The position numbers and the translations under genes were made by a program. 64,000 nt of DNA from Flexilinea flocculi (lineage in GTDB: Bacteria; Chloroflexota; Anaerolineae; Anaerolineales; Anaerolineaceae), in the NCBI RefSeq assembly GCF_001192795.1, contig NZ_DF968181.1:1912974-1976973 (forward strand). The letters are read 5' to 3'. Below, piece by piece: positions 2,169 through 49,063 of the stretch (positions within the stretch are counted from its first letter, which is position 1; each line of letters starts with the position of its first letter). Under the pieces are notes generated by a model. It was given only the letters and a program-made list of their open reading frames with translations. It was not told the origin of the DNA and ran no database searches.

Positions 2169-2175
2169 ATTTCTC

Positions 2176-8591: not shown

Positions 8592-8600
8592 GATAAATTC

Positions 8601-9362: not shown

Positions 9363-9436
9363 ATTGGATCGCAAAAATTTTTTGCACATTTCTAATTGTC
9401 GGATTTTAATGGAATCAAAAAAAGTGCAGGCAGATC

Positions 9437-10330: not shown

Positions 10331-10347
10331 TCTTGAAAAATGGTTTT
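10311..10347. terminator. Hairpin between convergent genes
   Basis: AAAACCATTTTTCA (10311-10324) pairs perfectly with 10334-10347. It overlaps the end of the formiminotransferase gene and sits 5 bp past the stop of the convergent WbqC-like gene. It probably acts as a shared terminator in both directions, although the T-run is poor. Confidence 0.6.
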
Positions 10348-10352
10348 GAGAT

Positions 10353-11057
10353 TTACCGCCCGATCGAATCCTCACGCCAGCCCCAAATATAATAGGGGGC
10401 ATCCGGTCCTGTATTAAACAGCAGATCTAAAATGGATACATGATGTTCAAAAGGCTGAAAAAGTTGCCGATATTCGGGATAATCCGAATAATCTTTCCAA
10501 ATCAATTGAATACCGGCATTTTGATAATCCTCAGCATGAATATAGCTCTTCGCTGCCGGTCCCGAAACATATACCTCTGCTCCGGTTGATTGAATTAAAG
10601 AGAGTAATTTTTGATGGCCGGATCCCGATGAAGCAAAATTTTTACTGTTGTCAAATCTGGTTGAAATTTTCAGAAAATCCGATGAGATTTTTTTTATTAA
10701 AAATTGATTAATTGCGGATATCGTTTCCCATTTTGATTCCAGATAAACAAATTCTAAAAACTCCTGATAATACCGAAAATAGGGCGCTTTTGCATAGGAA
10801 GTTAGCAACGATTGATAATGCTTCATCTGCCAGCGATTCGGAACGATGACAGCCTGATCAATACTGTCTTCCAAACTGGCTGATACTGGTACCGTCAACC
10901 ATTGAACACCAGTTTGTGTATAAATACGATTTCGATTGCGCCAATCATTCTTTGTGTACTGAACCTCATCATAAAAAAGGAACAGATCCACATCATGGAT
11001 AATATCAAAATATCCTTTCCATGGAATATAGTTCGATTGAAGTACAGCTAATTTCAT
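10353..11057 (-). CDS. WbqC-like family protein
   Basis: The 234-residue protein begins MKLAVLQSNYIPWKGYFDII, the hallmark N-terminus of the WbqC family. Members are found in polysaccharide gene clusters and their reaction is not well established. Further typical segments are FYDEVQYTKNDWRNRN and WLTVPV. The start at 11057 is chosen because its ATG overlaps the TGA of the upstream aminotransferase (ATGA), implying coupled translation. Together the two suggest aminodeoxysugar synthesis for a glycan or glycolipid, but no glycosyltransferase is adjacent. Confidence 0.85.
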   Translation of the reverse strand: MKLAVLQSNYIPWKGYFDIIHDVDLFLFYDEVQYTKNDWRNRNRIYTQTGVQWLTVPVSASLEDSIDQAVIVPNRWQMKHYQSLLTSYAKAPYFRYYQEFLEFVYLESKWETISAINQFLIKKISSDFLKISTRFDNSKNFASSGSGHQKLLSLIQSTGAEVYVSGPAAKSYIHAEDYQNAGIQLIWKDYSDYPEYRQLFQPFEHHVSILDLLFNTGPDAPYYIWGWREDSIGR

Positions 11058-12202: not shown

Positions 12203-12272
12203 CCTGCCTCTCTCAATAATTTTTAAATGCAGCTATTATTGTATATTATTTTCCAATATTCGGGCTGAAAAA

Positions 12273-12394
12273 CAGCGATTCTATTTATTCAAAGGGGAAA
12301 AATAGATCGTTGTTGCCATGTTCTTACACGGAGCGCAATAAAACATCAGATTTTCGATGTTTACTCAAGACACTTTTTCCGATCTCGAAAGGCA
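12273..12394. repeat. Palindromic intergenic element, copy 5 (degenerate core)
   Basis: Left end CAGCGATTCTATTTATTC, right end GATCTCGAAAGGCAG, 122 bp. The core GTTGTTGCCATGTTCTTACACGG...ATAAAACATC is only partly self-complementary. It lies between the divergent aminotransferase and lysA. Confidence 0.55.
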
Positions 12395-12476
12395 GATATC
12401 TGCTGCGGATTCTGTTTTCTTTATATAATTAGTTTTTAAATACTCACTATTTATCAATACGTTACAGGAAATCACA

Positions 12477-13784
12477 ATGTCATCATTTATCGAAAAAGAT
12501 TTGTTCCCGTTATCTACAGAACTTCGTCCAGATGGATCAATTACAATTGCCGGTTCCAGTTTAAAAAAATTGGCAAAAGATTTTGGATCACCGCTCTATC
12601 TTTATGATAGTGAAACGATTCGTGCAAATATTCAAAAACTGAAAAACGCTTTTTCAACGTTTTATCCTGGAAATTTCGCAATTGCTTATGCTTCAAAAGC
12701 TTATTTAAGCCGCAAATTTGCTGAAAAAATAGCAAAGCAAGATATTGAGCTGGATGTAGTGAGTATGGCTGAACTTCTGATCGCTCTAAAAGCCGGTTTT
12801 TCACCAAAACAGATCCATTTTCATGGAAACAACAAAACGACCGAAGAAATTCAAAAAGCGATTGACTGCAACATTCATGCTTTGGTGATCGACAACATGG
12901 ATGAATTATTGTATGCAGAAAAAATCGCAGCATCGAAGAATAAGTGCGTAAAAATCTGGCTTCGAATCACCCCGGATATCCATGTTAAAACACATCCTCA
13001 CATCGAAACCTCTGCAGCTGAAAGTAAATTTGGATTTCATGTAACAACCGGTGAAGCCAAAGCAGGAATTCAATACGCCTTAAAATCACATTTTTTCGAA
13101 TTGACCGGTCTCCATTGCCATTTGGGAAGTCAGATCTTTGATCCCCTTCCATATCGGATAACCATTCAAATGTTATATGACTTAGCTTCAGAATGTGGTT
13201 ATGTCCCTTCGGAATTAAGCCCTGGCGGCGGTTGGGGTGTTCCATATTCGACGGAAGATCCAGTGGCTGATCCAAATGATTGGATTGAACATATCAGTTC
13301 CGCTGTTATAGAACAATGCCGCCAAAAACAAATGCCGCTGCCAAAAATTGTCATCGAACCGGGGAGATGGCTGGTTGCAAAAGCCGGCGTTTCCATTTAT
13401 CAAATCGGATCTCAAAAATCGACACCGAATGGTCTGCGGATCATCGCTATCAATGGCGGTATGTCTGATAATCCACGAAATGCCTTGTATCAGGCAAAAT
13501 ATACTGCCGTAATTAATGGGAAAATTGCTTCAAATGAAGTTTTTCCATCGCGAATCGTCGGCAAATTCTGCGAATCGGGAGATACGCTAATTGATCAAGT
13601 TTATCTCCCTGAGGCAGAGCGAGATGATCTTTTAATCATCCCCGTATCTGGTGCATATCAGCTCAGCATGGCATCCAATTACAATCTTGCACCGCGGCCT
13701 GCTGTACTATGGTTGGAAAGTGGCGGTATTTATGAACTTCTGCAATATCGTGAAAATCCAGAGGAAAGCTCTTGGTGGGCATAA
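12477..13784 (+). CDS. lysA: Diaminopimelate decarboxylase
   Basis: Converts meso-diaminopimelate to lysine. It is a fold-III (alanine racemase-like) PLP enzyme. YASKAYLSRKF (about 70-80) carries the PLP lysine. HCHLGSQ and GGGWGVPY (phosphate cradle) and VGKFCESGD (substrate and partner-chain cysteine) follow in the expected order. It has 435 residues, full length. An SD-like AGGAA lies upstream of ATG 12477. I looked for a lysine riboswitch in the leader and saw none. Confidence 0.92.
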   Translation: MSSFIEKDLFPLSTELRPDGSITIAGSSLKKLAKDFGSPLYLYDSETIRANIQKLKNAFSTFYPGNFAIAYASKAYLSRKFAEKIAKQDIELDVVSMAELLIALKAGFSPKQIHFHGNNKTTEEIQKAIDCNIHALVIDNMDELLYAEKIAASKNKCVKIWLRITPDIHVKTHPHIETSAAESKFGFHVTTGEAKAGIQYALKSHFFELTGLHCHLGSQIFDPLPYRITIQMLYDLASECGYVPSELSPGGGWGVPYSTEDPVADPNDWIEHISSAVIEQCRQKQMPLPKIVIEPGRWLVAKAGVSIYQIGSQKSTPNGLRIIAINGGMSDNPRNALYQAKYTAVINGKIASNEVFPSRIVGKFCESGDTLIDQVYLPEAERDDLLIIPVSGAYQLSMASNYNLAPRPAVLWLESGGIYELLQYRENPEESSWWA

Positions 13785-13952
13785 TGTAATCTTAATTGTA
13801 TGACAATTAAATGACGATCAGGAAAATTGTCATAGAAGAATTTGTCCTACAATTAAAAAATCCTGAGTTATACTTGATATGCCAGTTGATAATTCAGAAA
13901 ATCTAATAGGTTAAATTTATTGTTCGATAGGAAACATCAGCAAGGAGAGACT

Positions 13953-15023
13953 ATGAAAAAACATAATTTCAATGCAGGACCCGCAATTTTACCAGATTAC
14001 ACCATTGAAAAAAGCATCGAAGCAATTAAAGATTTAAATGGAAGCGGTTTATCACTTTTGACAATTTCTCACCGCTCAAAAGATTTTGACGCAATCATGG
14101 ACGGAGCTGTTGCTGCGACGAAAAGACTGCTCGATATTCCAGAAGGTTATTCGGTGATCTTCCTTGGCGGCGGCGCAAGTACTCAGTTTTATACCATTCC
14201 CTATAATTTCCTTGGCACAAAAGCTGCTTATCTGGACACCGGTACGTGGGCTTTAGGCGGCATTAAAGAAGCGAAGTTATATGGTGAGGTCGAGGTTGTG
14301 GCATCATCCAAGGATAAGAATTATTCATATATTCCTAAAGGTTATAAAATTCCTACGGATGTAGATTATTTCGAAATCTGTTGCAACAACACGATTGAAG
14401 GCACAGAAATCCGTGAAGATTGGGATGTTTCGGTTCCTTTTATCGCTGACATGTCATCCGATATTTTCAGCCGCCCGGTTGATGTTTCAAAATATTCTCT
14501 CATTTTTGCTGGCGCCCAGAAAAACTTTGCTCCTGCAGGCGTTACCATGGTCATTATCAAGGACGCTTTCCTGGAAAAAGTGGTTCGACCGGTGCCGACA
14601 ATGGCTGATTACCGTGTTCATGTTTCCAAGAATTCCATGTTTAACACACCCCCCGTTTTTCCGATTTTTGCTGCTCTAAAGACAATGGAATGGATTGAAA
14701 TGTCAGGCGGTGTCAAAGAAATGGAAAAACGTGCTATCGACAGATCTGAAAAAGTATATGCTGAACTCGAAAGAAATAAATTCTTCGTACCAACTGTCGA
14801 AGATCCAGCTGACCGTTCCAGAATGAACATTACATTCCTGTTGAAACCGGAATATGCAGAATTGGAAACCGCTTTTCTTGATTTAGCAAAAGCGCGCGGT
14901 CTGGTTGGAATCAAAGGACACCGCTCTGTCGGCGGATTCCGCGCATCCTGTTACAACGCACTCCCGATGGAGAGCGTCGATGCACTGGTCGCCACTTTAC
15001 AGGAATTTGAAAAATCGAATTAG
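13953..15023 (+). CDS. serC: Phosphoserine aminotransferase
   Basis: Second step of serine biosynthesis: 3-phosphohydroxypyruvate plus glutamate to phosphoserine. The mature-looking start [14 protein letters not shown] at 13953 has a GGAGAG ribosome-binding site 5 nt upstream, so the longer frame from 13920 is rejected. NFNAGPA is the family N-terminus, and [15 protein letters not shown] carries the PLP lysine. [15 protein letters not shown] near the C-terminus is typical. It has 356 residues. It is followed 16 bp later by serA, so the pair forms an operon. Confidence 0.95.
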
Positions 15024-15039
15024 TTTGCAGGGAGTTAGG

Positions 15040-15963
15040 ATGAAAAAAGTATTAATTGCAACGGAAAAACCGTTTTCAAAACAAGCTTCCGATGGCATAA
15101 AAGCATTGCTTCAGGAAAAAGGGCACAAAGTTCGCACACTTGAAAAATATACAGATGTCAACCAGCTTTATGAAGCAGTTGCAGATGTAAATGCGTTAAT
15201 TGTCCGAAGCGATTTGATAACGAAAGAAGTCATGGCACACGCACCTAATCTTGAGATTGTTGTGCGGGCTGGCGCAGGATATGACAATATTGATCTGGAT
15301 GCCGCAACACAAAAAGGCATCGTCGTTGAAAATACACCCGGTCAAAATTCAAATGCAGTTGCAGAGCTGGTATTTGGCATGACAGTCATGTATATCCGAA
15401 AGTTCTTTGACGGCTCAACCGGAACAGAATTACTCGGAAAAAAGATCGGAATTCAAGGCTTTGGAGCTGTCGGACGTTGTGTAGCCCGCATCGCAAAGGG
15501 ATTCGGTATGGAAGTTTATGCTCTGGATACCTTTGCCCCAGAGGAAGTCTTTGAAAAAGCAGGAGTTCATCACGTAAAAGACATTAATGAACTTTATAAA
15601 ACCTGCCAATTCATATCCTTGCACATACCTGCAAATTCTGAGACAGTAAAATCTATCAATTATGAATTACTCTCAAAAATGCCGAAAAACGCAGTCCTCA
15701 TCAATACAGCCAGAGCTGAAGTGATTGATGAAGAAGGTTTAATTGAAATGTTCCAGAATCGCGAGGATTTCGGATATATTGCAGATGTTGCCCCCAAGAA
15801 TAAGGATCTGATTGCAGAAAGATTCCCAAAAAGGTTTTTCTTCACACCGAAAAAATGTGGCGCGCAAACCTCCGAAGCGAATAATAACGCCGGACTTGCA
15901 GCGGCCGTACAAGTCAACAATTTCTTTGAATCCGGAGATAAGAAGTACCAAGTCAATCTGTAA
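15040..15963 (+). CDS. serA: D-3-phosphoglycerate dehydrogenase, short type with Lys in place of catalytic His
   Basis: First step of serine synthesis, oxidising 3-phosphoglycerate. The start at 15040 has a GGAG ribosome-binding site 6 nt upstream. The Rossmann motif GIQGFGAVGRCVAR is at about 137-150, with substrate Arg in NTARAE (Arg225). The 307 residues lack the ACT regulatory domain. The usual TPHxGA motif reads TPKKCGAQTSEA (269-280), so lysines 271-272 occupy the place of the catalytic His, and the usual Glu motif is DVAPKN. This resembles PGDHs known from Bacteroides-like anaerobes and Entamoeba. It is operonic with serC. Confidence 0.9.
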   Translation: MKKVLIATEKPFSKQASDGIKALLQEKGHKVRTLEKYTDVNQLYEAVADVNALIVRSDLITKEVMAHAPNLEIVVRAGAGYDNIDLDAATQKGIVVENTPGQNSNAVAELVFGMTVMYIRKFFDGSTGTELLGKKIGIQGFGAVGRCVARIAKGFGMEVYALDTFAPEEVFEKAGVHHVKDINELYKTCQFISLHIPANSETVKSINYELLSKMPKNAVLINTARAEVIDEEGLIEMFQNREDFGYIADVAPKNKDLIAERFPKRFFFTPKKCGAQTSEANNNAGLAAAVQVNNFFESGDKKYQVNL

Positions 15964-15992
15964 ATCCGAATTGTACGTCCTGTAATAGAACC

Positions 15993-16035
15993 AAACCTGA
16001 AATTACAATTCAAAAAATAATTTCAGGTTTTTTTT
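15993..16035 (+). terminator. Rho-independent terminator of serC-serA
   Basis: AAACCTGAAATTA (15993-16005) pairs perfectly with 16018-16030, followed on the plus strand by a T-rich run. It begins 30 bp past the serA stop. Confidence 0.85.
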
Positions 16036-16036
16036 A

Positions 16037-16273
16037 TTAACAGGTGTATTTGTATACTATTTCAATCTTGAGTGAATTGATCATCTGGTCGATACGATTA
16101 ATGATTGAATAAAAGGCAGCAATTTTCTCTCGATCTGTGAGTGCGAGGAGGGCGTCAGCCCGATGAAGCAATCTTTTCCCGCATGTAGAAGGAGATTGAT
16201 TCCTCCCTACAAGACTCTCAATGACAGGTTCTGCCTCTGCGTGATTCTTAAAGCTTGGTTTCATCCAATCCAT
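16037..16273 (-). CDS. Small hypothetical ORF (doubtful)
   Basis: A 78-codon frame with a helical-looking C-terminal half (REKIAAFYSIINRIDQMINSLKIE). I see no clear ribosome-binding site at the ATG and no family resemblance. It occupies the 16036-16472 gap, which otherwise holds no recognisable gene or repeat copy. It may be spurious. Confidence 0.25.
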   Translation of the reverse strand: MDWMKPSFKNHAEAEPVIESLVGRNQSPSTCGKRLLHRADALLALTDREKIAAFYSIINRIDQMINSLKIEIVYKYTC

Positions 16274-37463: not shown

Positions 37464-38912
37464 TTAATTAGATTCTGCAAACTGATAAATCAGAAATCCT
37501 TCATTTTCATAAACCTGTTTGAATTTTTCTTGATTCAATTCTTGAATCGTTTTGAATCGTGAGAAATGGTTCTTGTCCTCAACAAAATACCGGATACCCA
37601 ATCGATCAGCCTCAGATTTCGTCGTTTCATATTGATTCAGATCTTCATTTGATATTAAACCGGCATGAACATCGGCAAAAAAAGCCAATGCCCTGGGTTT
37701 TCGAAAATAATATCCGTCATTGCCCGATTGATCAACGAATTCGTACAAATTCATTGCTGCAGGATTTGTTGCCTCTTGAATTTCATTCGCTTTTTCTTTC
37801 ATATGAAAATATTCCGGAACATAGCCGATAATCAATAGAATTAATAGGACTGGAATAATTCTTTGATCAGTTTTAAGCATTTTTTGAAGAAAAATTATCC
37901 CAAACATCAATGAAAACGGAATTAATGCGAAAATATATCTTGATCCTTGAATAGAAGGGAATATAAGCAGCAAACCCAAAAAAAAGAACGAAAAGAGAAC
38001 GACAAAATCGATTTTCTTTGAGGAATAAAGTGTTGAAATGATTCCGCCAATCACGAAAAAGATAAAAATTAGAACTATCGGTAAAACATCTGTTCTGAGG
38101 ATCGATTTTGCCAAAATTTTTGAATAATAAACGATATTAAAAAATATCGTCCCTAAAGGATCTTTAAAAATCAATCGTAAATTGAAGTACGCACTTTCAT
38201 GCAGCAACAGTTTCTGCATGATGATTAGAATTACTGTTAATACGATTGTTAATATGAGTTCTTTTTTTATTTTTTTATTCAGAAAAAGATAATACAGAAT
38301 AAAAGATGGGATCAGTACAATTCCTGCTGATCGAGATGCATAAGATAACCAGATTAGAACGGCTATTAATATCGATTGAGATACAGTTGTCTTATTGGAA
38401 AATTTTTCAATGGCAAGAATTGCAAGCATTGTAAAAAACAAAGCTGTGAAGTCAGACAGGATCTGATCCAGTTCTATAAAATAATCCGGATTTAATCCGA
38501 ACAAAATGACTACAAGGATGCTGATGAAAAACGAAAACCGCTTTCGAAAAAAAATAAATAATAAAACCAGATAAAGCACATAAAAAATCACACTGACTGT
38601 TTTTAACTTTATGAAATCCAATCCAAACCATTTATAAACCAGGGATAAAAAGAAGGGATACACCGGAGGATAAAGCCTGGGTGAATAAAGTGGTTCCCGC
38701 TCATTATAAATATATCCGGAATTCGAATACTCATGTTTTTCTGCGATATTCTTCGCCTGTTGAAGATACAGAGCAAAATCATCGCCCCAGCCATGACCAT
38801 CGGTAAGAACCGCAGATAGCAGTACAAAAAGCAATACGATAGTAAATAGGAGAAGTAGTTTTTCCGTTAACGGTGAAAATCTGATTTTTAAGATTTTTTT
38901 TTGAAGATTCAT
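37464..38912 (-). CDS. GT39/ArnT-like polytopic membrane glycosyltransferase
   Basis: Reading from ATG 38912 gives 482 residues with about ten TM helices. The first extracytoplasmic loop contains DGHGWGDDFALYLQQAKNI and RLYPPVYPFFLSLV, the acidic-pair and Pro-rich pattern of polyprenyl-phosphate-sugar glycosyltransferases. The C-terminal tail (about 390-482) is soluble. The longer frame to 39140 lacks family features. The acceptor and sugar are unknown. It precedes the SorC gene by 44 bp. Confidence 0.72.
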   Translation of the reverse strand: MNLQKKILKIRFSPLTEKLLLLFTIVLLFVLLSAVLTDGHGWGDDFALYLQQAKNIAEKHEYSNSGYIYNEREPLYSPRLYPPVYPFFLSLVYKWFGLDFIKLKTVSVIFYVLYLVLLFIFFRKRFSFFISILVVILFGLNPDYFIELDQILSDFTALFFTMLAILAIEKFSNKTTVSQSILIAVLIWLSYASRSAGIVLIPSFILYYLFLNKKIKKELILTIVLTVILIIMQKLLLHESAYFNLRLIFKDPLGTIFFNIVYYSKILAKSILRTDVLPIVLIFIFFVIGGIISTLYSSKKIDFVVLFSFFFLGLLLIFPSIQGSRYIFALIPFSLMFGIIFLQKMLKTDQRIIPVLLILLIIGYVPEYFHMKEKANEIQEATNPAAMNLYEFVDQSGNDGYYFRKPRALAFFADVHAGLISNEDLNQYETTKSEADRLGIRYFVEDKNHFSRFKTIQELNQEKFKQVYENEGFLIYQFAESN

Positions 38913-39294
38913 GATTGTATTATAAAGTATAGTTGCTGTATCAGGACAGCACATTTCGAACCTGATTGTTTGTTGATTGAATTCATTACGAATGATTGTA
39001 TATTTACCGATGCGGAGTCCGGGTATTAAATAAGTTATTAAATCGCAAATAAATACAAAATGGTTGTACTTGAATTTGATCCATACCTTGTTCTTCAAAA
39101 AAACATCCCATATAATGGACACAACAAAACTGACCATCATATTCTACTTAATTTTGGTCCAAGAGTCCAAAAAAAGCAGTATGTTAATCAATAATCACGA
39201 ATTGATGATTTCTGAATGAGATTCAGATTTTCGCTAATGAGTTTCAAACGGATTTTTATACATACTGTAAAACAAACATAAACAGGGAGATTTT
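38913..39294. other. Divergent intergenic region
   Basis: The 382-bp gap separates the minus-strand GT39/SorC/UroD genes from the plus-strand BMP importer operon. It contains one good plus-strand promoter (39088-39116) and a roughly 170-nt leader with a small ATCAAT/ATTGAT hairpin near 39190-39210. No repeat copy or known riboswitch is seen. Confidence 0.5.
39088..39116 (+). promoter_or_regulatory. Sigma-70-type promoter of the BMP importer operon
   Basis: -35 TTGTTC (39088-39093), a 17-nt spacer and -10 TATAAT (39111-39116). A start site near 39123 would give a leader of about 170 nt before the bmp ATG at 39295. Confidence 0.6.
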
Positions 39295-40371
39295 ATGAAA
39301 AAAAGAGTACTTTTAATTCTGTTCTGTTTTGTATTAGCTTCAACACTGCTTTTTGCAGCATGCAATACAAAAACCGAGCCTACTGCGGCTCCTGTTATCG
39401 AAGAGACGAAAACAGTAGCCGAAGTTCCTGCCGCTGAGAAATCCGCAGATACCAGTGTAGCAACCGATAAAAAATCCGATGTTAAAGTTGCAATGGTGCT
39501 ATCCGGCCCAATCAATGATGATGACTGGAATTCAGTGGGTTATAATGGCTTGAAAAAAGCCTGCGAAGAATTGGGTGTCGAATTCGCATATAGCGAAAGT
39601 GTTACTGACGCCGATGCAGAACGTGTAATTCGTGACTACGCTGCTCGGGGTTATCGTTTGATTTTTGCGCACAGTTTTTCTTTCGGTGAAGCAACTTTAA
39701 AAGTTGCGAAAGATTTCCCGGAGACAATTTTCATGGCCGGTACAGCAAATGAATTAACCGAAAACATGGGCACCTATGACAATCCGGATTATCAAGGAGC
39801 ATACCTCGCCGGAATGCTTGCAGCCGGAATCAGTAAGACCGGTACCATTGGCTGGGTCGATGGAATGGCCTCGCCAAACATGCTCGCGAACTTGCATGCG
39901 TATCAAGCTGGTGCGTTGGAAATGAATCCTGAAATAAAAGTACTGCATACATTCATCGGTAGTTGGTATGATCCTCCAAAAGCAAAAGAAGCAGCCATTG
40001 CTCAAATTGAACAGGGAGCAGATGTACTGAGTTCTCAGGGTGTTGGTGTCATTGACGCCGCAATCGAAAAAAAGGTCTGGGCATTAGGTGCGATGACGGA
40101 TCAGAACTTCATGGGTCCGGATGTTGTTCTTACCAGTGTTATGTGGGACTTATATCCGTGCATCAAGAATGTCACTCAGGAAGTAATTGACGGTACATGG
40201 AAAAGTGGAAATCGCTCTTATGGAATCGCAGACGGAGCAGTTTATTTTGCTGAATATCATGGTTTGGATTCAAACATACCTGCTGATGTTTTAGAGAAGG
40301 TCAATGCGAAATTCGACGCAATTAAAACTGGTGAATTTGAAGTACCGCATGATACAAGCGAAGTTAAATAG
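39295..40371 (+). CDS. BMP-family ABC transporter substrate-binding lipoprotein
   Basis: Binding protein of the BMP/PnrA/Med class, whose characterised members bind purine nucleosides. The lipoprotein signal RVLLILFCFVLASTLLFAAC has its lipid-anchor Cys at about residue 23, followed by a low-complexity linker (24-60). The binding domain has VAMVLSGPINDDDWNSVGYNGL and FMAGTANE, with YQGAYLAGMLAAGISKTGTIGWVDGM. It has 358 residues. An AGGGAG site precedes the ATG. A strong 13-bp intercistronic hairpin follows the gene. Confidence 0.93.
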   Translation: MKKRVLLILFCFVLASTLLFAACNTKTEPTAAPVIEETKTVAEVPAAEKSADTSVATDKKSDVKVAMVLSGPINDDDWNSVGYNGLKKACEELGVEFAYSESVTDADAERVIRDYAARGYRLIFAHSFSFGEATLKVAKDFPETIFMAGTANELTENMGTYDNPDYQGAYLAGMLAAGISKTGTIGWVDGMASPNMLANLHAYQAGALEMNPEIKVLHTFIGSWYDPPKAKEAAIAQIEQGADVLSSQGVGVIDAAIEKKVWALGAMTDQNFMGPDVVLTSVMWDLYPCIKNVTQEVIDGTWKSGNRSYGIADGAVYFAEYHGLDSNIPADVLEKVNAKFDAIKTGEFEVPHDTSEVK

Positions 40372-40400
40372 TCAGTTTTTTAGTCTGTAAAAACAAAAGA

Positions 40401-40429
40401 ACATGGCGGCCAAAAATTGGCCGCCATGT
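40401..40429 (+). promoter_or_regulatory. Intercistronic hairpin after the BMP binding-protein gene
   Basis: ACATGGCGGCCAA (40401-40413) pairs perfectly with 40417-40429 around AAA. It is GC-rich in AT-rich surroundings and lacks a T-run. It is more likely an mRNA-stabilising or attenuating hairpin that raises binding-protein expression over the transporter genes than a full terminator. Confidence 0.75.
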
Positions 40430-40457
40430 GTTGCTCATTCAGGGGAAAATGATTTAA

Positions 40458-41993
40458 ATGCATCCACCTTTGTCATCTCAAAAAGTAAATCTTCAAATGC
40501 AGGGAATCACAGTTCGCTATGGAAGTTTCATAGCCAATGATGGTGTCAATATTTCAGTCGATCACGGACAGACGCTGGCATTGCTTGGTGAAAATGGCGC
40601 CGGAAAAACAACTTTAATGAAAGTGCTGGCTGGAATCATTAAACCGGAATCCGGCCGGATTCAAATCAATGGGAAAGAAGTCCAAATCCTCTCGCCAATT
40701 CATTCTCAACAACTTGGAATCGGAATGGTTCATCAACATTTTATGTTGATTCCAACACTTTCAGTTGCGAAAAACGTTTGTATAGGTTTGAAGTCAGCAG
40801 GATATCCTTTCCCAAATATTTTGAAGGTTGAAAATGAACTTATAAAAATTTCTGAAAAATATAATTTGCAGATTGATCCAAAAGCAATTGTCTCCACCCT
40901 TTCAGTCGGAACTCAGCAGCGTGTAGAAATTCTGAAAGCGTTATATCGCGGTGCAAAAATACTTATCCTGGATGAACCTACATCCATATTAACCCCGCAG
41001 GAAACACATGGATTGTTTGGAATAATCAAATTTTTAACCGGACAAGGGTGCTCGGTTATTTTTATCAGTCATAAATTGAACGAAGTAATGGAGATCAGTG
41101 ACCGTATAACAGTCTTACGTCAGGGAAAAGTAACCGCCGAGATCTCAAAAGATGAAACAAATGAAAAAGATCTGTCGATCTTAATGGTTGGCCATGAATT
41201 CACAAAAAAACGGACAATTAAGCCGGTTCCACCGGAAGCTTCAGAACTGGTGAAGATCGATCGGATAACCTATTTTGATGAACGAAAATTACCGGTATTA
41301 CGAGAATTGGATTTGACAGTCAAAAAAGGTGAAATCCATGGCATTGCTGGAGTTGACGGGAACGGTCAGGTAGAACTGGCGAAAGTTTTAGCAGGTATTT
41401 TAAGACCGGATAGTGGTCGGATTTTCATCAATGGGAATGATGTGACAAAACTGTCACCCGGAAAGAGAATTACCGCCGGACTCGCACATATTCCAGGTGA
41501 TCGGCAGCGATTGGGTCTGGTGATGGACGTTTCATTAGGAGAAAATTTCATTCTGGAAACCAGTGGGAAAGAGCCTGTTTCAAAACATGGGATTCTCAAC
41601 TTCAATAACATTCGAAATACATCCAAACAATTAATTAAAGATTACGATATCCGCTGCATCAGCGTTGATCAGACAGCAGCAACATTATCTGGAGGGAATC
41701 AACAAAAATTGGTCTTGGCCAGGGAATTTTCAAGAATGCCCAAATTCATTATTGCCATGCAGCCAAGTCGAGGATTAGACGTGGGAGCAACTGAATTCGT
41801 TCATGAGAAGTTGCTTGAACAGCGGGAAAACGGAAACGGGATTTTACTTATCTCAACAGAACTTGATGAAATTTTCGAACTGTCTGACAGAATTTCCGTA
41901 ATTTATGAGGGGAAAATTCTCGCCACTTTATCTCGGGAAGTAGCAAATCGAGAGCGTATTGGATTATTAATGACTGGAAAAACTGATGTTTAA
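40458..41993 (+). CDS. ABC transporter ATPase, nucleoside/BMP type (two nucleotide-binding domains)
   Basis: 511-residue tandem ATPase of the RbsA/NupO type. The N-terminal domain has Walker A GENGAGKTTLMKVL, LSVGTQQRVEILKAL and LILDEPTSIL. The C-terminal domain has the degenerate Walker A GVDGNGQVELAKVL and LSGGNQQKLVLAREF. It powers the two permeases that follow. It overlaps the first permease by 8 bp. Confidence 0.95.
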   Translation: MHPPLSSQKVNLQMQGITVRYGSFIANDGVNISVDHGQTLALLGENGAGKTTLMKVLAGIIKPESGRIQINGKEVQILSPIHSQQLGIGMVHQHFMLIPTLSVAKNVCIGLKSAGYPFPNILKVENELIKISEKYNLQIDPKAIVSTLSVGTQQRVEILKALYRGAKILILDEPTSILTPQETHGLFGIIKFLTGQGCSVIFISHKLNEVMEISDRITVLRQGKVTAEISKDETNEKDLSILMVGHEFTKKRTIKPVPPEASELVKIDRITYFDERKLPVLRELDLTVKKGEIHGIAGVDGNGQVELAKVLAGILRPDSGRIFINGNDVTKLSPGKRITAGLAHIPGDRQRLGLVMDVSLGENFILETSGKEPVSKHGILNFNNIRNTSKQLIKDYDIRCISVDQTAATLSGGNQQKLVLAREFSRMPKFIIAMQPSRGLDVGATEFVHEKLLEQRENGNGILLISTELDEIFELSDRISVIYEGKILATLSREVANRERIGLLMTGKTDV

Positions 41994-43086
41994 CAAAGCG
42001 GATAACCATAATATCGAACTTGAATTCAAAAAGCAACGTAGGGCTGAGACACTTACTGCAGCCGGATCCAGTATCGGTGCAGTAATCCTTGCGCTAATCA
42101 TTGGGGCTGTCATCATCCGCTTATTGGGAGTAAATCCTTTTGATGCGTATCGTGCGTTGATAGATGGCGCTTTTGGCACAAAAAATAGTATTGCAGAGAC
42201 GCTGCTTAGGGCAGTTCCTTTAGCGATAACCGGAATTGGTATCACTGCTGCGTTTCGCGCTTCAATCTTTAATGTAGGAGCAGAAGGACAACTTTACCTT
42301 GGAGCTACATCCGCAGTATGCGTTGGACTGGCATTTCCTACATTGCATCCTGCAATACTCCTTCCTCTCATGGCTATAGCCGGAATGATAACAGGAGCGT
42401 TGTGGGGAGGAATTGCAGTATTGCTCAAACTCAAATTCAATGCAAATGAGATGATCAACACGATCATGATGAACTATATTGCCATATATTTTGTTTCCTG
42501 GCTTGTTCATGGACCGATCCAACAGCCTGGTTCACCGCTTGGTCAAACAGCAGGCTTATCCGACAATGCGATTCTTCCGATCATATTAAAGCAAACTCGA
42601 CTTCATATTGGATTTATTATCACGCTTTTAATGGTTCTGCTTACAGGTTTTCTGATCTATCGAACTGTTTGGGGCTATCAGATCAGAGTAACCGGGAAAA
42701 ATATGTTTGCATCACAAGCTGCGGGTATAAAAGTTAAGTGGGTTTTCCTATCCTCAATGCTTTTCAGCGGTGCAATGGCTGGATTGGCAGGATTTTTCGA
42801 AGCTGCAGGAATTCAACACCGGATGATTGAAAACATCTCATCGGGATATGGCTATACAGCGATCGTGGTTGCGTTATTAGGGCAGCTCAATCCGTTCGGA
42901 GTTTTGCTTGCTGCAATACTATTCGGAGGCTTACAGATTGGCGCCAGTACCATGGAGACTGCAGTCGGTGTTCCGGCATCTGCAGTTACATTGATTCAAT
43001 ATTTGATCGTGATTTTGTTTATCGGACGAAAAGCGTTCAGTTTAATCATTCAACAAATGAAAAAGAATCGAAAGGTTGCAGCATGA
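41986..43086 (+). CDS. ABC transporter permease 1, nucleoside/BMP type
   Basis: 366-residue BPD_transp_2 permease with about nine TM helices. It has the conserved LLRAVPLAITGIGITAAFRASIFNVGAEGQ and GSPLGQTAGLSDNAILP segments of the BMP/NupP group. It overlaps the ATPase by 8 bp and the second permease by 4 bp (ATGA). It forms the heterodimeric channel with the next gene. Confidence 0.93.
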   Translation: MFNKADNHNIELEFKKQRRAETLTAAGSSIGAVILALIIGAVIIRLLGVNPFDAYRALIDGAFGTKNSIAETLLRAVPLAITGIGITAAFRASIFNVGAEGQLYLGATSAVCVGLAFPTLHPAILLPLMAIAGMITGALWGGIAVLLKLKFNANEMINTIMMNYIAIYFVSWLVHGPIQQPGSPLGQTAGLSDNAILPIILKQTRLHIGFIITLLMVLLTGFLIYRTVWGYQIRVTGKNMFASQAAGIKVKWVFLSSMLFSGAMAGLAGFFEAAGIQHRMIENISSGYGYTAIVVALLGQLNPFGVLLAAILFGGLQIGASTMETAVGVPASAVTLIQYLIVILFIGRKAFSLIIQQMKKNRKVAA

Positions 43087-44048
43087 TTGGAGATCTTTTT
43101 TCTTTTCTGACATCATCCATTTTTGAAGGATTTCTTACTGCCAGCATGCGATTAGCAATCCCGATCATGCTCGCTGCCATTGGAGGAATTTATAACGAAA
43201 GAGCGGGGATTTCTAATATCGGTATGGAAGGATTTATGATCGTAGGCAGTCTGACAGGATTTGTCGTTTCCTATTATTCCGGTTCTGTTTGGATTGGTAT
43301 TCTTGCCGCGATTTTTCTGGGGATCCTGCTTGGTCTGATTATGGGCTATTTCGAAATTACGTTGAAAGTCAATCAGGTAGTTTTTGGAATTTCTTTAAAT
43401 CTTTTTTGTGTTGGCCTGACCAGCTTTCTTTTTCGAATTATCTTCGGAATTACATCGAATTCTCCGAGAATTACACCTCTTCCAACCATCATGATCCCGA
43501 TCCTTTCGAAAATTCCGGTTATTGGACCAATTCTCTTTCAACAAACAGCTTTAGCTTATATCACGTATATTCTGGTATTGATCACAGCGATCATCATGTA
43601 TCGTAGTGCATGGGGAATGAATATCATTGCTGCTGGAGAGAATCCTGAAGCTGCTGAAACGATGGGTGTTGATGTCATCCGGACACGCTATTATGCAATT
43701 ATCATATCAGGTGTTCTATGTTCAATCGGCGGTGCATTTCTTTCCACTGCCAGTACAGGTCTTTTTGTTCAAAACATGACTGCCGGCCGTGGTTATATTG
43801 CATTAGCGATTTTAGTCATCGGGCGCTGGGATCCGTTTGGTGTATTTATAGCCGCATTATTATTCGGTGCAGCGGATGCATTGCAACTTCGGACGCAGCT
43901 TTTCAATTTCGACATCCCCTATCAGTTTTTAGTCATGCTTCCATACATCCTTTGCATGGTCGTTATGATTTTCTTCAGCAAATCATCTCGTGCTCCAGCT
44001 GCTTTGGGTGAACCGTATGACCGTGGAGGAAAGAAAAGTGAGATATAA
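43083..44048 (+). CDS. ABC transporter permease 2, nucleoside/BMP type
   Basis: 321 residues, the NupQ-like second permease. LRLAIPIMLAAIGGIYNERAGISNIGMEG-like signatures are visible in the first 60 residues (MRLAIPIMLA, NERAGISNIGMEGFM). About eight to nine TM helices follow, with AAGENPEAAETMGVDV as the cytoplasmic coupling loop. It overlaps the upstream permease by 4 bp and the creatininase-family gene by 11 bp. Confidence 0.93.
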   Translation: MIGDLFSFLTSSIFEGFLTASMRLAIPIMLAAIGGIYNERAGISNIGMEGFMIVGSLTGFVVSYYSGSVWIGILAAIFLGILLGLIMGYFEITLKVNQVVFGISLNLFCVGLTSFLFRIIFGITSNSPRITPLPTIMIPILSKIPVIGPILFQQTALAYITYILVLITAIIMYRSAWGMNIIAAGENPEAAETMGVDVIRTRYYAIIISGVLCSIGGAFLSTASTGLFVQNMTAGRGYIALAILVIGRWDPFGVFIAALLFGAADALQLRTQLFNFDIPYQFLVMLPYILCMVVMIFFSKSSRAPAALGEPYDRGGKKSEI

Positions 44049-44769
44049 AAGTCAAGAACTAACCTGGCCAGATTTTGAACGGATAGCAAAAGACGGTGCC
44101 ATAGCAGTTTTCGCTGTCGGCGCTCATGAAGAGCATGGACCGCACTGTTGTCTGCAAACAGATACAATCATGTCGCAGGCGCTGGCTGAGAGAATCGCCG
44201 ACCAGATCGATGCGATCCTTCTGCCTGCAATTCCTTACGGTGAATGTTGGTCAACTTCCAAATATCCAGGTACGATTTCCTTACAACCCGAGACGTTGAT
44301 AGCGCTGGTTACCGATATCGCAAAAAGTTTACAGAAAAACCTTGTCCGAGCTTTATTAATCGTCAATGGACATTTTGGAAACCAATCGCCGTTATTCCTG
44401 GCATCAAGACGAATGAAAGAGATGCTTGATTATCCTGTTATGGTGTTGGATTATCCGGACATCGACAGGATTTTTTCTGAGATTTGTGAATCAAAACCCC
44501 CTGCTCCTGGTTTTTATCATGCAGATGAATTTGAAACATCGGTCATATTAGCTGTAGCTCCGCACACCGTTCAAATGGAAAAGGCAGAACCCGGATATCC
44601 AATTTTTCCGATAACCTACTCGGCTTGTCCGACATTCCTATCTGATTTCAATCCAAACGGTGTTTTTGGGGATCCAACAAAAGCAACCGCTGAAAAAGGT
44701 TGGTTAATTTTGGATGCGCTAACCGAAGCTTCGATTCCAATAGTTAAGACATTTATCGAATCTCTTTAA
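44038..44769 (+). CDS. Creatininase-family amidohydrolase
   Basis: Metal-dependent hydrolase of the creatininase superfamily (creatinine amidohydrolase, FAPy deformylase and MftE belong here). GTG 44038 is chosen as the start because GGAGGA lies 7 nt upstream; ATG 44017 and GTG 43990 lack this. Metal-ligand motifs are AVGAHEEHGPHCCLQTDT, NGHFGNQ (usual NGHGGN) and YHADEFETS. It has 243 residues. Being in the importer operon, it probably acts on the imported compound; the exact substrate is open. Confidence 0.88.
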   Translation: MRYKSQELTWPDFERIAKDGAIAVFAVGAHEEHGPHCCLQTDTIMSQALAERIADQIDAILLPAIPYGECWSTSKYPGTISLQPETLIALVTDIAKSLQKNLVRALLIVNGHFGNQSPLFLASRRMKEMLDYPVMVLDYPDIDRIFSEICESKPPAPGFYHADEFETSVILAVAPHTVQMEKAEPGYPIFPITYSACPTFLSDFNPNGVFGDPTKATAEKGWLILDALTEASIPIVKTFIESL

Positions 44770-44806
44770 GAAAATTTATCATTCAGAAATAGGAAATGGA
44801 AACAGA

Positions 44807-46168
44807 ATGAATCAAAATACGCTGGATAAGATTATTGAGAATAATTCTGATCAATATATTCAAGAGTTGGTTAGGTACTTACGACAACCCAGTCTTTCGG
44901 TAAACGGCGATGGAATTGAAAAAATGGTTGAAATAGTTGCTGAATCCCTGCAAACTCGAGGTTTTTCGGTTGAGATAATTCCGACAAATCATTGGCCTGT
45001 AATCTTTGCAGAACGAAAAGGCAGGAGCGATCGGTCGATTATTTTCTATAATCATTACGATGTTCAGCCGGGTGATCCGTTGAATTTATGGGTTTCTCCG
45101 CCGTTTGAACCTCAAATCCGGGACGGAAGGTTATTCGCCCGCGGAGCAATGGATGATAAAGGTCATTTAATTTGCAGAATTGCAGCCATTGATTCGCTCT
45201 TAGCACTAAACGACGAGCTTCCTTGCACAATCAAATTTCTTATTGAAGGGGAAGAAGAAATCGGAAGTCCGGACTTACCGACAGTTGTTGAACAATATAA
45301 AGATAGAATTCATTCTGATCTTTGTTTATGGGAATTCGGAGATGTTGATGAGGATGGTTATTCAATCCAATATCTCGGATATCGCGGAATGCTAAATATT
45401 GAATTAAATATACAAACAGCCTCAAGCGATGGCCATTCCGGTATCTGGGGAAATCTTATGCCAAATGCGGCCTGGCGTTTGGTTTGGGCACTTGCTTCTT
45501 TAAAAGATTCGAATGAAAAAGTTCTGGTTCCAGGTTTTTATGATCATATCATTCCTCCCTCGGAATCGGATATCAACTATCTAAAACAGTTGCCGCCAAT
45601 GCGTGAAAAATATATCACCACGGCAGGATCAAATACGCTCGTTACCGGTGATCTTGATAATGCTGATCTGATTATCCAATCGGTCATGCAGCCAAGTTGT
45701 ACAATCTGCGGACTAACTTCCGGATATCAAGGTGAAGGAGCCAAAACGATCGTTCCCTGCAATGCAAGCGCTAAAGTCGATTTTCGCCTTTCTCCGGGAC
45801 AAGACGCAGAAGATATTCTGGCTAAAGTCCGCCGTCATCTGGATCATAACGGTTTTACGGATATCAGCATCAAAGTCCTTGGAAAATTATCTGCCAGCCG
45901 TACACCTTCAGATCATCCACTTGTTAAACTCCTGTCCTCTTCAGCAGAAGATGTGTACGGAAAACCGCAAAGAGTACTACCAATCTGCGGTGGCAGCGGT
46001 CCAGCATTTCTATTTGATGGGATTGCTGAAACTCCAGTTTTCACTGCAGGAATTGGCAATCCGCAATCTGCAATTCATAGTCCTAACGAAAACATTAAAA
46101 TTGTCGATTTCGTGAATGGAATCCGGCATACAGCCAGGATTTGTCAATTGTTGGAGTTTTTCCCATAA
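44807..46168 (+). CDS. M20-family metallopeptidase / amidohydrolase
   Basis: 453-residue di-zinc hydrolase of the M20 dipeptidase type. FYNHYDVQPGDP (ligand His-Asp), RGAMDDKGHL (bridging Asp), IEGEEEIGSPD (catalytic Glu pair) and AIHSPNENI (C-terminal His ligand) are all present. The mid-chain dimerisation or lid domain lies at about 190-310. It follows the creatininase-family gene by 37 bp and closes the operon. A peptide- or carbamoyl-amide substrate is plausible. Confidence 0.9.
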   Translation: MNQNTLDKIIENNSDQYIQELVRYLRQPSLSVNGDGIEKMVEIVAESLQTRGFSVEIIPTNHWPVIFAERKGRSDRSIIFYNHYDVQPGDPLNLWVSPPFEPQIRDGRLFARGAMDDKGHLICRIAAIDSLLALNDELPCTIKFLIEGEEEIGSPDLPTVVEQYKDRIHSDLCLWEFGDVDEDGYSIQYLGYRGMLNIELNIQTASSDGHSGIWGNLMPNAAWRLVWALASLKDSNEKVLVPGFYDHIIPPSESDINYLKQLPPMREKYITTAGSNTLVTGDLDNADLIIQSVMQPSCTICGLTSGYQGEGAKTIVPCNASAKVDFRLSPGQDAEDILAKVRRHLDHNGFTDISIKVLGKLSASRTPSDHPLVKLLSSSAEDVYGKPQRVLPICGGSGPAFLFDGIAETPVFTAGIGNPQSAIHSPNENIKIVDFVNGIRHTARICQLLEFFP

Positions 46169-46264
46169 TAAGGAATCATGAGGAAGTCCGAAAAGTCGGA
46201 AAATTTTTTTCGGATGGTTTACAAATTACGATCCGGAAATAAACTGTCTAATGCGCTTTATAAA

Positions 46265-46388
46265 CAGAAATTCGAAATGTAGATATAAGCTTTTCAAAAA
46301 AGTAGAAAAGAAGTTGTTGTGATTTTCTTTCGCTTCGCGTTAAAAAATCACAACAACTTCTTATTTTGTCCCAATTTCGAATCGCTAT
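46265..46388. repeat. Palindromic intergenic element, copy 12 (124 bp, perfect 19-bp stem)
   Basis: Left end CAGAAATTCGAAATG, right end AATTTCGAATCGCTA. Positions 46308-46326 pair perfectly with 46344-46362. The hairpin is 43 nt from the left end and 26 nt from the right end, the reverse of copy 1. It lies between the convergent M20 gene and sugar permease gene. Confidence 0.9.
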
Positions 46389-46426
46389 TTTATAAAGCCC
46401 CACTCTTTCAAAATCGGAAATTACTT

Positions 46427-47410
46427 TTAAGCTTTGCGTGCATTCTTTCTCATATCAAGAATAACCGCAACAATAATCACAACACCTTCCACGATTTGCT
46501 GCAAATAAGATTGGATTCCTAAAATTGTCATACCATTGCGCATAACGGAAAGCACCAAAGCACCAACAACAGCGCCCCAGACCGTTCCGATCCCGCCGGA
46601 CTGACTGGTACCGCCAATTGTCGTTGACGCAATTGCAGTCAACTCATAGCCGGAAGCCAATCCGGGTTGGGCTGAGACCATTCGGCCGGTTGAAACAATT
46701 GCCGCAACGCCGGCGCACATCCCCATATAGGTATATACCCAAAGCAGGATTTTCTTTACGTTGACGCCAGATACTTCTGCTGCGTTAATATTTCCTCCAA
46801 CAGCAAAAGTTCTTTTTCCAAAGCGTGTGTTATTCAATAAAATTTTTGTAATGATGATCATGCCCAAGTATATTACTACCGGCATTGGTATACCCAACAG
46901 TCGTCCCTGCCCGATAAATTCAAAGGATGGAATTAAGGTACTGACAGGTTTTCCGGATGTATAGATATACGCAAAACCACGGCAAATCGTCATCATCCCC
47001 AAAGTTGCAATAAAAGCCGGAATGCCGGTAAAAGCAATCAGACCACCATTAATTGCACCGCAAATCGCACCGATCAATAATCCAGCCAGAATGGGTACAA
47101 TAATCGGCAGTTCGGCCATATTGGCAAAATATTTCGTAGATGCCGTACTGCTCTGGCCCAGACTGGCAGCTATCACAGCGCACAATGCTAAAATCGAGCC
47201 TACAGAAAGATCAATTCCTTTCGAAACAATTACAACGGTCATACCCAGCGCTAATATTCCATACACGGAACATTGCGTTAAAATATTCAAAATATTATTC
47301 AATGTTCGAAAGCTCGGTTTGATCATACTCATCGCAATAATCATTACGATTAATACAAACACGATTCCATATTTTGTAAAAATCTCTTGCAATCGATTTT
47401 GATGTTTCAT
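46427..47410 (-). CDS. ABC sugar permease, RbsC-like
   Basis: 327-residue BPD_transp_2 permease with about nine TM helices. QCSVYGILALGMTVVIVSKGIDLSVGS and VGGNINAAEVSGVNVKK are the RbsC/XylH-type signatures. A GAGGA site precedes ATG 47410. It is last in the SBP-ATPase-permease operon, 18 bp after the ATPase. Confidence 0.94.
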   Translation of the reverse strand: MKHQNRLQEIFTKYGIVFVLIVMIIAMSMIKPSFRTLNNILNILTQCSVYGILALGMTVVIVSKGIDLSVGSILALCAVIAASLGQSSTASTKYFANMAELPIIVPILAGLLIGAICGAINGGLIAFTGIPAFIATLGMMTICRGFAYIYTSGKPVSTLIPSFEFIGQGRLLGIPMPVVIYLGMIIITKILLNNTRFGKRTFAVGGNINAAEVSGVNVKKILLWVYTYMGMCAGVAAIVSTGRMVSAQPGLASGYELTAIASTTIGGTSQSGGIGTVWGAVVGALVLSVMRNGMTILGIQSYLQQIVEGVVIIVAVILDMRKNARKA

Positions 47411-47428
47411 TGAATCCTCTTTTATCCC

Positions 47429-48940
47429 TTAAAAATCATCTTGCGTTCCGGTTGCATACCGCATGATGGTATCTTGTGTCAAATCCGATGAGTTCTCCAA
47501 CAAGCCTGTCATTTTCCCTTCATGCATCACCATGATTCTGTCGCTCATGCCTAATATTTCCGGCAATTCCGAAGAAACCATCACAATACATTTTCCTTCA
47601 CTGGCGAGCATTGTGATCAATTTATAAATCTCTGCTTTAGCGCCAACATCGATTCCGCGAGTCGGTTCGTCCAGGAATAGGATATCGGGACCTGTCATCA
47701 GCCACCTCGCCATTAATACTTTTTGCTGATTCCCGCCGCTGAGATTCTGGATTGCCTGTTTCAGACTCGGCGTTTTGATCTGAATCTTCTCAACAAATTC
47801 ATTACACCCTTTTGTAACTGCTCTGTCATCCACCAGCCCGATTTTTGAAAGGAATTGATCGTAATTCGGAATCGCAATATTTGAATCCACTCCCAATACT
47901 GCAAAAATTCCTGTTGCTCTGCGATCCTCTGTTAAAAAGCCCATTTTATTGGCTATGCCATCCATAGGGCTATTAATTTCGGCCAGTTTCCCATTAATCC
48001 AAATTTCGCCGGATATTTTTGGACGCATGCCAAATATCGTTTCAATCACTTCCGTTCTGCCAGCTCCTACCAATCCGGCAATTCCGAAAATTTCACCCTT
48101 TCGTACTTCAAAAGAAATATTATGAAAATACTTTTTATGAGATAAATTCTTTACTTCAAGGATTGTTTCACCAATCGTACACGGGATTTTAGGATACATC
48201 TCATCCATGGTACGGCCAATCATCATTGTAATGATTTGATCCATCGTTAATTGATCGATTGCTTCAGTGCCAACATTCTTTCCATCTCTGAAAACAGTTA
48301 CCTTATCTGCAATTTCAAAAATCTCAGCTAATCGATGAGAGATATAGATGATTGAAGTACCCTGTTTTTTCAGTTTCCGGATAATTTTGAACAACTGCTG
48401 TTCTTCGTGTTCCGTCAAAGCAGAGGATGGCTCATCCATAATAATCAACTTGGCATCATAAGAAATCGCTTTCGCAATTTCCACCATCTGCATCTTTGCA
48501 ACAGTCAAATTTACCATCAAAGTGCGAGGATCTTCGTCCAGTTCAATTTCTTGCAGCACCCTCAAGCTTTTGTTATACATTTCCTGATGATCGACTAGTC
48601 CGAATCGGTTTAACGGTTCTCTTCCAAGCCAAAGGTTTTCCATGATCGGGCGATACAAAACAGGTGACAGTTCCTGATGGATCATAGAGATACCCATCGT
48701 CAATGCCTGTGCAGTTGAATAATGCTCAATCTTTTTTCCAGCAAAATAAATATCTCCGGAAGAAACCGGATACAATCCGATCAAACATTTCATTAATGTA
48801 GACTTGCCGGCTCCATTCTCACCTACCAATGCATGAACTTCACCATAACCGACATTCAGATTTACACCTTTGAGGGCTTTCACACCTGGGAAATTCTTCT
48901 CAATGTTCACCATCTGCAGAAGATCTTTTTCTTTTTCCAT
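47429..48940 (-). CDS. ABC sugar importer ATPase, RbsA/MglA-like
   Basis: The start is set at ATG 48940, preceded by AGGAG; an upstream ATG at 48967 in the same frame is less likely. The 503-residue tandem ATPase has the N-terminal Walker A GENGAGKSTLMKCL, LTVAKMQMVEIAKA and IIMDEPSSAL. The C-terminal half has the degenerate GLVGAGRTEVIETIF and LSGGNQQKVLMARWL. It is a typical ribose/galactose/inositol-type importer ATPase. Confidence 0.95.
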   Translation of the reverse strand: MEKEKDLLQMVNIEKNFPGVKALKGVNLNVGYGEVHALVGENGAGKSTLMKCLIGLYPVSSGDIYFAGKKIEHYSTAQALTMGISMIHQELSPVLYRPIMENLWLGREPLNRFGLVDHQEMYNKSLRVLQEIELDEDPRTLMVNLTVAKMQMVEIAKAISYDAKLIIMDEPSSALTEHEEQQLFKIIRKLKKQGTSIIYISHRLAEIFEIADKVTVFRDGKNVGTEAIDQLTMDQIITMMIGRTMDEMYPKIPCTIGETILEVKNLSHKKYFHNISFEVRKGEIFGIAGLVGAGRTEVIETIFGMRPKISGEIWINGKLAEINSPMDGIANKMGFLTEDRRATGIFAVLGVDSNIAIPNYDQFLSKIGLVDDRAVTKGCNEFVEKIQIKTPSLKQAIQNLSGGNQQKVLMARWLMTGPDILFLDEPTRGIDVGAKAEIYKLITMLASEGKCIVMVSSELPEILGMSDRIMVMHEGKMTGLLENSSDLTQDTIMRYATGTQDDF

Positions 48941-49063
48941 CGTTTCTCCTCGTAGGATTTTTTTCATCTTGAATTCAAAAATATTCTACTAACTATAGAA
49001 AAGAAAGTAAAAGACTTTTAATCACAAGATGCATGTAAATTTCCTAAAATAAAAAATCCAAAA

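Follow-up and report, generated by a model that had tools for sequence, protein, structure and literature searches.

Gene organization of the importer–hydrolase locus

We analysed a 64,000-nt stretch of the Flexilinea flocculi genome (contig NZ_DF968181.1, positions 1,912,974 to 1,976,973; hereafter the window), part of a 3.5-Mb genome in three contigs, and focused on an importer–hydrolase operon at 39295-46168. Six co-directional open reading frames (ORFs) on the forward strand span this region, and Pfam matches support the gene set listed by a first-pass annotation of the sequence. The first gene (39295..40371) encodes a BMP-family substrate-binding lipoprotein of the AtzT/3s99 kind (PF02608, 4.8e-54), whose translation has its lipobox cysteine at residue 23. 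It is followed by the tandem ATP-binding cassette (ABC) ATPase of the importer (40458..41993), with PF00005 matched in two stretches, by permease 1 (41986..43086; PF02653, 4.3e-40) and by permease 2 (43083..44048; PF02653, 2e-39). The last two genes encode a creatininase-family metal-dependent hydrolase (44038..44769, longest ORF from 43990; PF02633, 1.7e-63), which is not a creatininase sensu stricto, and an M20 metallohydrolase resembling PRK06446 and CNDP (44807..46168; PF01546, 6.1e-30, and PF07687, 1.5e-12). The lipoprotein, the tandem ATPase and the two BPD_transp_2 permeases all score above the Pfam gathering cut-offs, identifying an ABC importer of the BMP/PnrA type.

The first-pass annotation described the importer genes as overlapping one another, which holds for the ATPase and permease 1 (8 nt, 41986-41993) and for the two permeases (4 nt, 43083-43086), but not for the BMP and ATPase genes, which lie 86 nt apart (40372-40457). 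The 11-nt overlap that it gave for permease 2 and the creatininase-family gene is reproduced with a GTG start at 44038, which has GGAGG 8 nt upstream. Starting in frame from another GTG, at 43990, would lengthen the ORF; we preferred 44038 because the longest ORFs of three orthologues start at the equivalent point. The gap between the creatininase-family and M20 genes is 37 nt, and the importer and both hydrolases form one apparent transcription unit.

Two hairpins accompany the operon. The BMP–ATPase interval contains a 13-bp hairpin (40401..40429; minimum free energy (MFE) -29 kcal/mol and z -4.5 for the fold of 40372-40457), and a strong fold also lies 3' of the BMP gene in the three related operons described below (z -3.5, -5.0 and -5.4 in L060, L061 and L062, the last computed on the first 145 nt only and overlapping the longest ATPase ORF). 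The usual meaning of such a hairpin would be that more binding protein than ATPase is made. A long hairpin 3' of the operon, between convergent genes (46303..46367; MFE -28.5 kcal/mol and z -6.4 for 46290-46380), is probably a transcription stop. No Rfam (riboswitch) match was found in 38900-46500 or in the three related operons, and a promoter scan, with 17 found against 17.6 expected, was uninformative.

Conservation of the gene order

Scanning contigs with the creatininase-family protein, in a mode that finds close relatives only, recovered homologues in Flexilinea sp. MO118 (58% identity; L060), Ornatilinea sp. (52%; L061) and Longilinea arvoryzae KOME-1 (47%; L062). The order BMP–ATPase–permease–permease–creatininase is kept in all three of these other Anaerolineaceae, with protein identities of 48-77%, and the permease stop and hydrolase start share 4, 1 and 4 bases, respectively. 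The recurrence of the gene order in other genomes, which the first-pass annotation had left to be sought, therefore extends to five genes. The sixth is replaced or missing: an M20 gene of another subfamily comes next in L060 and L062 (two of the three relatives), and no M20 gene was found at L061. Among 400 genomes drawn from the order, 40 have a creatininase-family match at E <= 1e-30 and four carry a strong orthologue, namely the window genome (G000), the two genomes that contain the same loci as L060 and L062 (G523 and G608) and G640. The operon is conserved but sporadic.

The binding protein resembles purine-base binders

In the Protein Data Bank (PDB), the closest relatives of the BMP protein are AtzT of Pseudomonas sp. 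ADP (6pi5; 1.4e-50) and a Brucella protein (3s99; 5.1e-45), with BmpA (8.1e-21), BmpD (8.9e-16) and TmpC/PnrA (2fqw; 3.2e-14) farther away. By sequence it is thus nearer to structures bound to purine bases than to nucleoside binders, and the description of the importer as nucleoside-type in the first-pass annotation is too loose. AtzT was purified with guanine, for which it has an affinity of ~110 nM, and the Brucella protein was modelled with adenine, as reported in PMC6834077. Of the AtzT residues that contact guanine (Tyr45, Ser97, Phe98, Glu165, Trp194, Asn218 and Asn220), the window protein keeps the positions of Ser97, Phe98 and Trp194, together with that of Asn169; Tyr45 corresponds to Trp or Phe in the window clade, which keeps the aromatic character, and the other three differ, as described below. 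The importer probably serves a purine-type base. A putative B6 importer (NF047927-NF047930) was also considered and was rejected, the subunits scoring 115.1, 461.5, 170.1 and 246.5 against cut-offs of 400, 670, 400 and 465.

Purine-type genes accompany related operons

The neighbours of the related operons were then compared. At L060, a GntR regulator gene lies upstream, and the genes downstream encode an M20 enzyme (M20D, CpsA-like), an OsmC-like protein, an adenine deaminase (473.6 against a cut-off of 472.5) and a TRZ/ATZ aminohydrolase. At L062, a GntR regulator gene and xanthine dehydrogenase genes lie upstream; downstream come an M20 gene, another BMP binding-protein gene (12004-12885 of that stretch), the gene of an adenine deaminase homologue, which this BMP gene separates from the M20 gene, and a TRZ/ATZ aminohydrolase gene. 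No such neighbours were found at L061. Two more distant loci, L107, whose genome belongs to the same genus, and L179, from another family, bring together a BMP importer, a distant creatininase-family gene (28% and 34% identical to the window protein) and an 8-oxoguanine deaminase (650.2 and 671.7 against a cut-off of 532). L179 also shows two tandem BMP binding-protein matches ahead of one importer (7809-9776). A further BMP-linked locus, L112 (G623; 787-7383), contains a true creatininase (TIGR04448, 322.6 against 235), a BMP importer and an ADI/DDAH-family protein, and is a candidate operon for creatinine uptake and degradation with a BMP-type importer.

The control consisted of 40 creatininase-family stretches obtained by searching the class and the order. 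L060 and L062 account for two of these, and two of the other 38 have a BMP importer (L107 and L112), which leaves 36 that are not BMP-linked. No xanthine dehydrogenase, adenine deaminase or TRZ/ATZ gene (E <= 1e-15) was found in these 36 class loci, whereas a TRZ/ATZ gene is present in four of the six BMP-linked loci (L060, L061, L062, L107, L112 and L179; Fisher 1.3e-4, or 4.0e-4 with the window clade counted once). Among 20 loci of the window's BMP subfamily (the 19 best plus one from the same genus, out of 34 non-own matches listed), xanthine dehydrogenase genes occur in five and TRZ/ATZ genes in two, giving 7/20 against 0/36 (Fisher 3.3e-4). The loci behind these tests are not independent, L179 entered through its BMP gene, some loci share a genome, and stretches shorter than 12 kb account for 9/38 of the creatininase-family and 6/20 of the BMP-subfamily loci.

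Relatives of the creatininase-family protein on plasmids were examined as well, nine being read of 40 places listed (419 records matched). None of these nine loci has a window-type BMP protein at E <= 1e-5. One of them, L186 on a Rahnella victoriana plasmid, has an 8-oxoguanine-deaminase-like gene (38% protein identity to that of L179) ~5 kb from its creatininase-family gene and without a BMP gene, so the 0/36 control is valid for class loci only. The creatininase-family gene of L186 is clustered with RidA, amidohydrolase, oxidoreductase and ABC importer genes (1342-8807). Its protein falls into a weakly supported tree group with those of L107 and L179, a grouping that supports a purine link in that branch more strongly than in the window's own. 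Taken with the sequence similarities of the binding protein, the company kept by the related operons suggests that this one probably serves to scavenge purines (or rings like them), as an unstudied version of such systems, and not to import nucleosides.

The two hydrolases and their families

The CREATININASE-family enzyme (44038..44769) matches PF02633 with 214.6 bits against a cut-off of 31.3, placing it in the family, and no other PF02633 gene was found in the window genome. A fold search with its predicted structure, a middling model (predicted local distance difference test (pLDDT) 75.4, predicted template modelling score (pTM) 0.78, active-site loops <50), returned 26 matches at E <= 0.001, all creatininase-type, with TM scores of about 0.6-0.7 and root-mean-square deviations of 7-9.5. 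Like creatininase (EC 3.5.2.10), it has equivalents of Glu34, His36, Asp45, His120, His178 and Glu183; unlike creatininase, the alignment gives Gly for Glu122 and Pro for Trp154, and Trp174 is lost. These residues have roles in creatininase, and mutants of Glu122, Trp154 and Trp174 are named in the titles of matched PDB creatininase entries. The protein scores 137.2 against the TIGR04448 cut-off of 235, which the creatininase of L112 passes as a positive control, and it also misses the cut-offs for MftE (114.4 against 172), ArfB (19.3 against 180) and IolN (67.9 against 245).

These features bear on an alternative in which the creatininase-family enzyme opens a small non-purine cyclic amide (creatinine, hydantoin or lactam) that the M20 enzyme then trims. 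Such reactions suit both hydrolase families, and L112, where the gene of a true creatininase neighbours those of a BMP importer and an ADI/DDAH-family protein, indicates that such a pairing is possible. However, the window protein lies below the creatininase cut-off and lacks the residues at 122, 154 and 174, Pfam reveals no creatinase-type (M24) gene in the operon, and L060 and L062 carry purine-type enzymes, so we consider this explanation unlikely. Creatinine degradation was accordingly set aside as the leading reading, given that the window enzyme fails on both cut-off and residues whereas L112 holds a real creatininase. We also asked whether the enzyme takes the place of a hydantoinase that is absent, an idea weakened by TIGR02033 matches above cut-off in all five genomes searched, the window genome among them; the genes around the hydantoinase of the window genome were uninformative.

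In a tree of 76 proteins, the window clade of creatininase-family proteins is well supported (99/92). A single origin of the BMP linkage was rejected, as the tree needs 5 label changes, at least 2 of them forced by starred branches, although long branches leave placements unsure. Among the close non-orthologous relatives outside the window clade whose neighbours were read, several adjoin phosphotriesterase-family, sugar phosphotransferase system (PTS), sugar-ABC or aldolase genes. This raises the possibility that the enzyme is a sugar-acid or lactone-type hydrolase and that a sugar-like compound, or one derived from a nucleoside, enters through the BMP importer. Yet no carbohydrate enzyme is found among the scanned genes of the orthologous operons and the binding protein is AtzT-like, and we regard a sugar-type role as quite unlikely.

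The window M20 enzyme narrowly misses NF005034 (PRK06446; 352.9 against a cut-off of 369), and its nearest PDB sequence is the Sulfolobus carboxypeptidase Sso-CP2 (4mmo). M20D enzymes occupy the equivalent place in L060 and L062, so that one M20 type appears to stand for another, and the step may matter more than the lineage of the enzyme. Its resemblance to dipeptidases and carboxypeptidases, together with the weak relationship of its partner to the peptidase MftE, could point to a cyclic dipeptide or modified peptide that the creatininase-family enzyme opens or trims and the dipeptidase-like M20 enzyme finishes. This is improbable in view of the purine company in relatives, the lack of conservation of the M20 subfamily and the absence of any peptide binder, by name, among the 14 BMP-type structures matched. 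Least probable of all is a nucleoside importer to which two hydrolase genes were joined by chance: the BMP family does include nucleoside binders, but similarity to PnrA/TmpC is weak and the five-gene order is kept in four genomes with overlapping permease and hydrolase genes.

Purine genes elsewhere in the genome and known pathways

Six other BMP loci above the Pfam cut-off occur in the window genome, three of them next to purine genes. L114 (G000:C3:653000-672900) contains an operon (3443-14141) in which a BMP importer is encoded together with an adenine deaminase (509.3 against 472.5) and subunits of xanthine dehydrogenase. This importer has the same layout as that of the window operon, with a binding protein 34.6% identical; unlike the window operon, the L114 stretch has no creatininase-family or M20 gene that we could find. 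L117 places a BMP importer beside an adenine deaminase homologue, and L118 beside a purine nucleoside phosphorylase, a deaminase and MtnA. Behind the importer and phosphorylase of L118, a stop breaks an MTA/deoxyadenosine-deaminase-like gene (15014-16272, G000:C2), and the rest of its homology continues in a different frame. L132, which is not linked to the window operon, encodes the closest relative (51%) of the xanthine dehydrogenase in the Longilinea operon, and an 8-oxoguanine deaminase (663.5 against 532) and a hydantoinase are also present and unlinked. From its gene content, the genome looks able to collect and deaminate purines.

The xanthinase pathway of clostridia, reportedly described by Tong et al. 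in 2023, resembles what we propose in its stepwise hydrolysis, there of xanthine, and requires a UbiD-type decarboxylase. It was rejected for the window genome (G000), in which, as in G523, G535 and G608, no UbiD-family decarboxylase was found; one was found in G013. The xanthinase cluster has been identified in Clostridia and Bacilli (PMC12507026). In 2012, according to PMC3519856, genes of this kind were not to be found.

The reductive uric acid pathway, with SsnA, HyuA, YgeW/UacY and YgeY, offers another comparison (PMC12507026). It too proceeds by hydrolysis and uses an M20 enzyme late in the route, YgeY belonging to the E. coli uric acid route (PMC12507026). The earlier view that both hydrolase families stand outside nucleoside catabolism is weakened by YgeY (PMC12507026) and by the purine-type deaminases in two of the three sister operons, one with a xanthine dehydrogenase homologue. 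Unlike this pathway, in which creatininase is unmentioned in the main text of PMC12507026, the window genome has its SsnA-like gene unlinked to the operon (450.7 against a cut-off of 455.5; SsnA exceeds the cut-off in two of five genomes) and no YgeX-type diaminopropionate lyase that was found. For this lyase (TIGR01747), G000, G523 and G013 gave no match, G608 one above the cut-off and G535 weak matches only. The SsnA-like gene adjoins those of an aminotransferase and a MobA-like NTP transferase, and none of its 7 scanned neighbours is a further uric acid gene.

Two further features of the window stand near or apart from the operon. Genes for a sugar-type ABC permease and tandem ATPase (MglC/MglA-like) at 46427-48967 are convergent with it, and a formiminotransferase (FTCD_N/FTCD) gene at 9437-10330 lies ~29 kb away.

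A proposed role in purine scavenging

On balance, and by a narrow preference, the sequences lead us to propose that in this anaerobic Chloroflexota bacterium the operon scavenges a purine or closely related oxopurine base, with amide hydrolysis in the base or in a product of it. From what is directly seen, that is, the operon structure, the five-gene conservation, the family memberships and the purine-linked company in relatives, we infer the ligand, both hydrolytic reactions and their order as follows. Two aromatic rings of the lipoprotein would sandwich the free base, in the way that AtzT sandwiches guanine, and the ABC transporter would bring it into the cell. Within the base, the creatininase-family metal-dependent hydrolase would then cut either a cyclic amide or a formamide or ureide outside the ring; alternatively, its substrate may be a product of the deaminases and xanthine dehydrogenases encoded elsewhere in the genome. 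The M20 enzyme would next cut the linear amino acid so formed, which would bear an N-acyl, N-carbamoyl or N-formimidoyl group.

Several observations weigh against this proposal. In the binding protein of the window clade, AtzT Glu165 is replaced by Asn, and the loop carrying Asn218 and Asn220 is two residues shorter, so that neither asparagine is kept; the structure model of the protein is poor (pLDDT 57.7) and unusable. In the pocket alignment, five xanthine-dehydrogenase-linked BMP proteins have the loop as short as in the window and keep the glutamate, and the Glu-to-Asn change could accommodate a base whose carbonyl lies at that edge, such as xanthine, hypoxanthine or urate. No purine enzyme is encoded in the window operon, nor beside L061 as far as scanned, and 13 of the 20 BMP-subfamily loci lack any purine gene sought. 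At L062, the adenine deaminase (368.1 against 472.5) and XdhA (708.1 against 780) fall short of their cut-offs, as do the TRZ/ATZ proteins of L060 and L062. A strong orthologue of the creatininase-family enzyme was found in only two of the 11 genus genomes searched, the window genome included, and that of G640 (L095; 49% identity) lies in a stretch without a BMP importer. Different M20 subfamilies occur in the operons, and the sugar-type surroundings of several of the tree neighbours read, phosphotriesterase-family, sugar-PTS and sugar-ABC genes among them, count against an old purine role.

The first-pass annotation had proposed uptake of a heterocycle followed by amide-type hydrolysis. This outline survives in the apparent transcription unit and the five conserved genes, with a heterocycle as the probable ligand; nothing directly supports its "modified nucleoside". 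The ligand may be a purine base in oxidised or alkylated form; alkylated bases stay possible because AtzB-like enzymes can act on N2,N2-dimethylguanine (PMC13054789).

A more far-reaching suggestion, tentative and on the whole doubtful, is that the creatininase-family/M20 pair constitutes a hydrolytic branch, so far undescribed, by which Chloroflexota break down purines anaerobically, providing ring-opening or deformylating and amino-acid-releasing steps. It would start from a purine or an oxidised guanine (such as 8-oxoguanine or a formamidopyrimidine) that had been imported and then deaminated or oxidised; the creatininase-family enzyme would take a step done by unrelated hydrolases in other bacteria, and the M20 enzyme would free the amino acid. 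On this reading, BMP importers would have joined up with ring openers of the creatininase family on more than one occasion. Text searches of the literature aimed at this pairing, one of them covering the 20 papers listed of 18,273 matched, found no description of a purine-type BMP importer paired with a creatininase-family gene.

Chloroflexota are common anaerobes of sludge and sediment. SsnA has been reported in the phylum, whose SsnA clusters are without the reductases described in other phyla (PMC12507026), which leaves parts of its purine route unassigned. The conserved purine-type importer and hydrolase operon gives concrete candidates for this route, and one of its holders is a named strain, L. 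arvoryzae KOME-1. If the proposal is true, the large and diverse creatininase-like family would also gain a role in purine metabolism.

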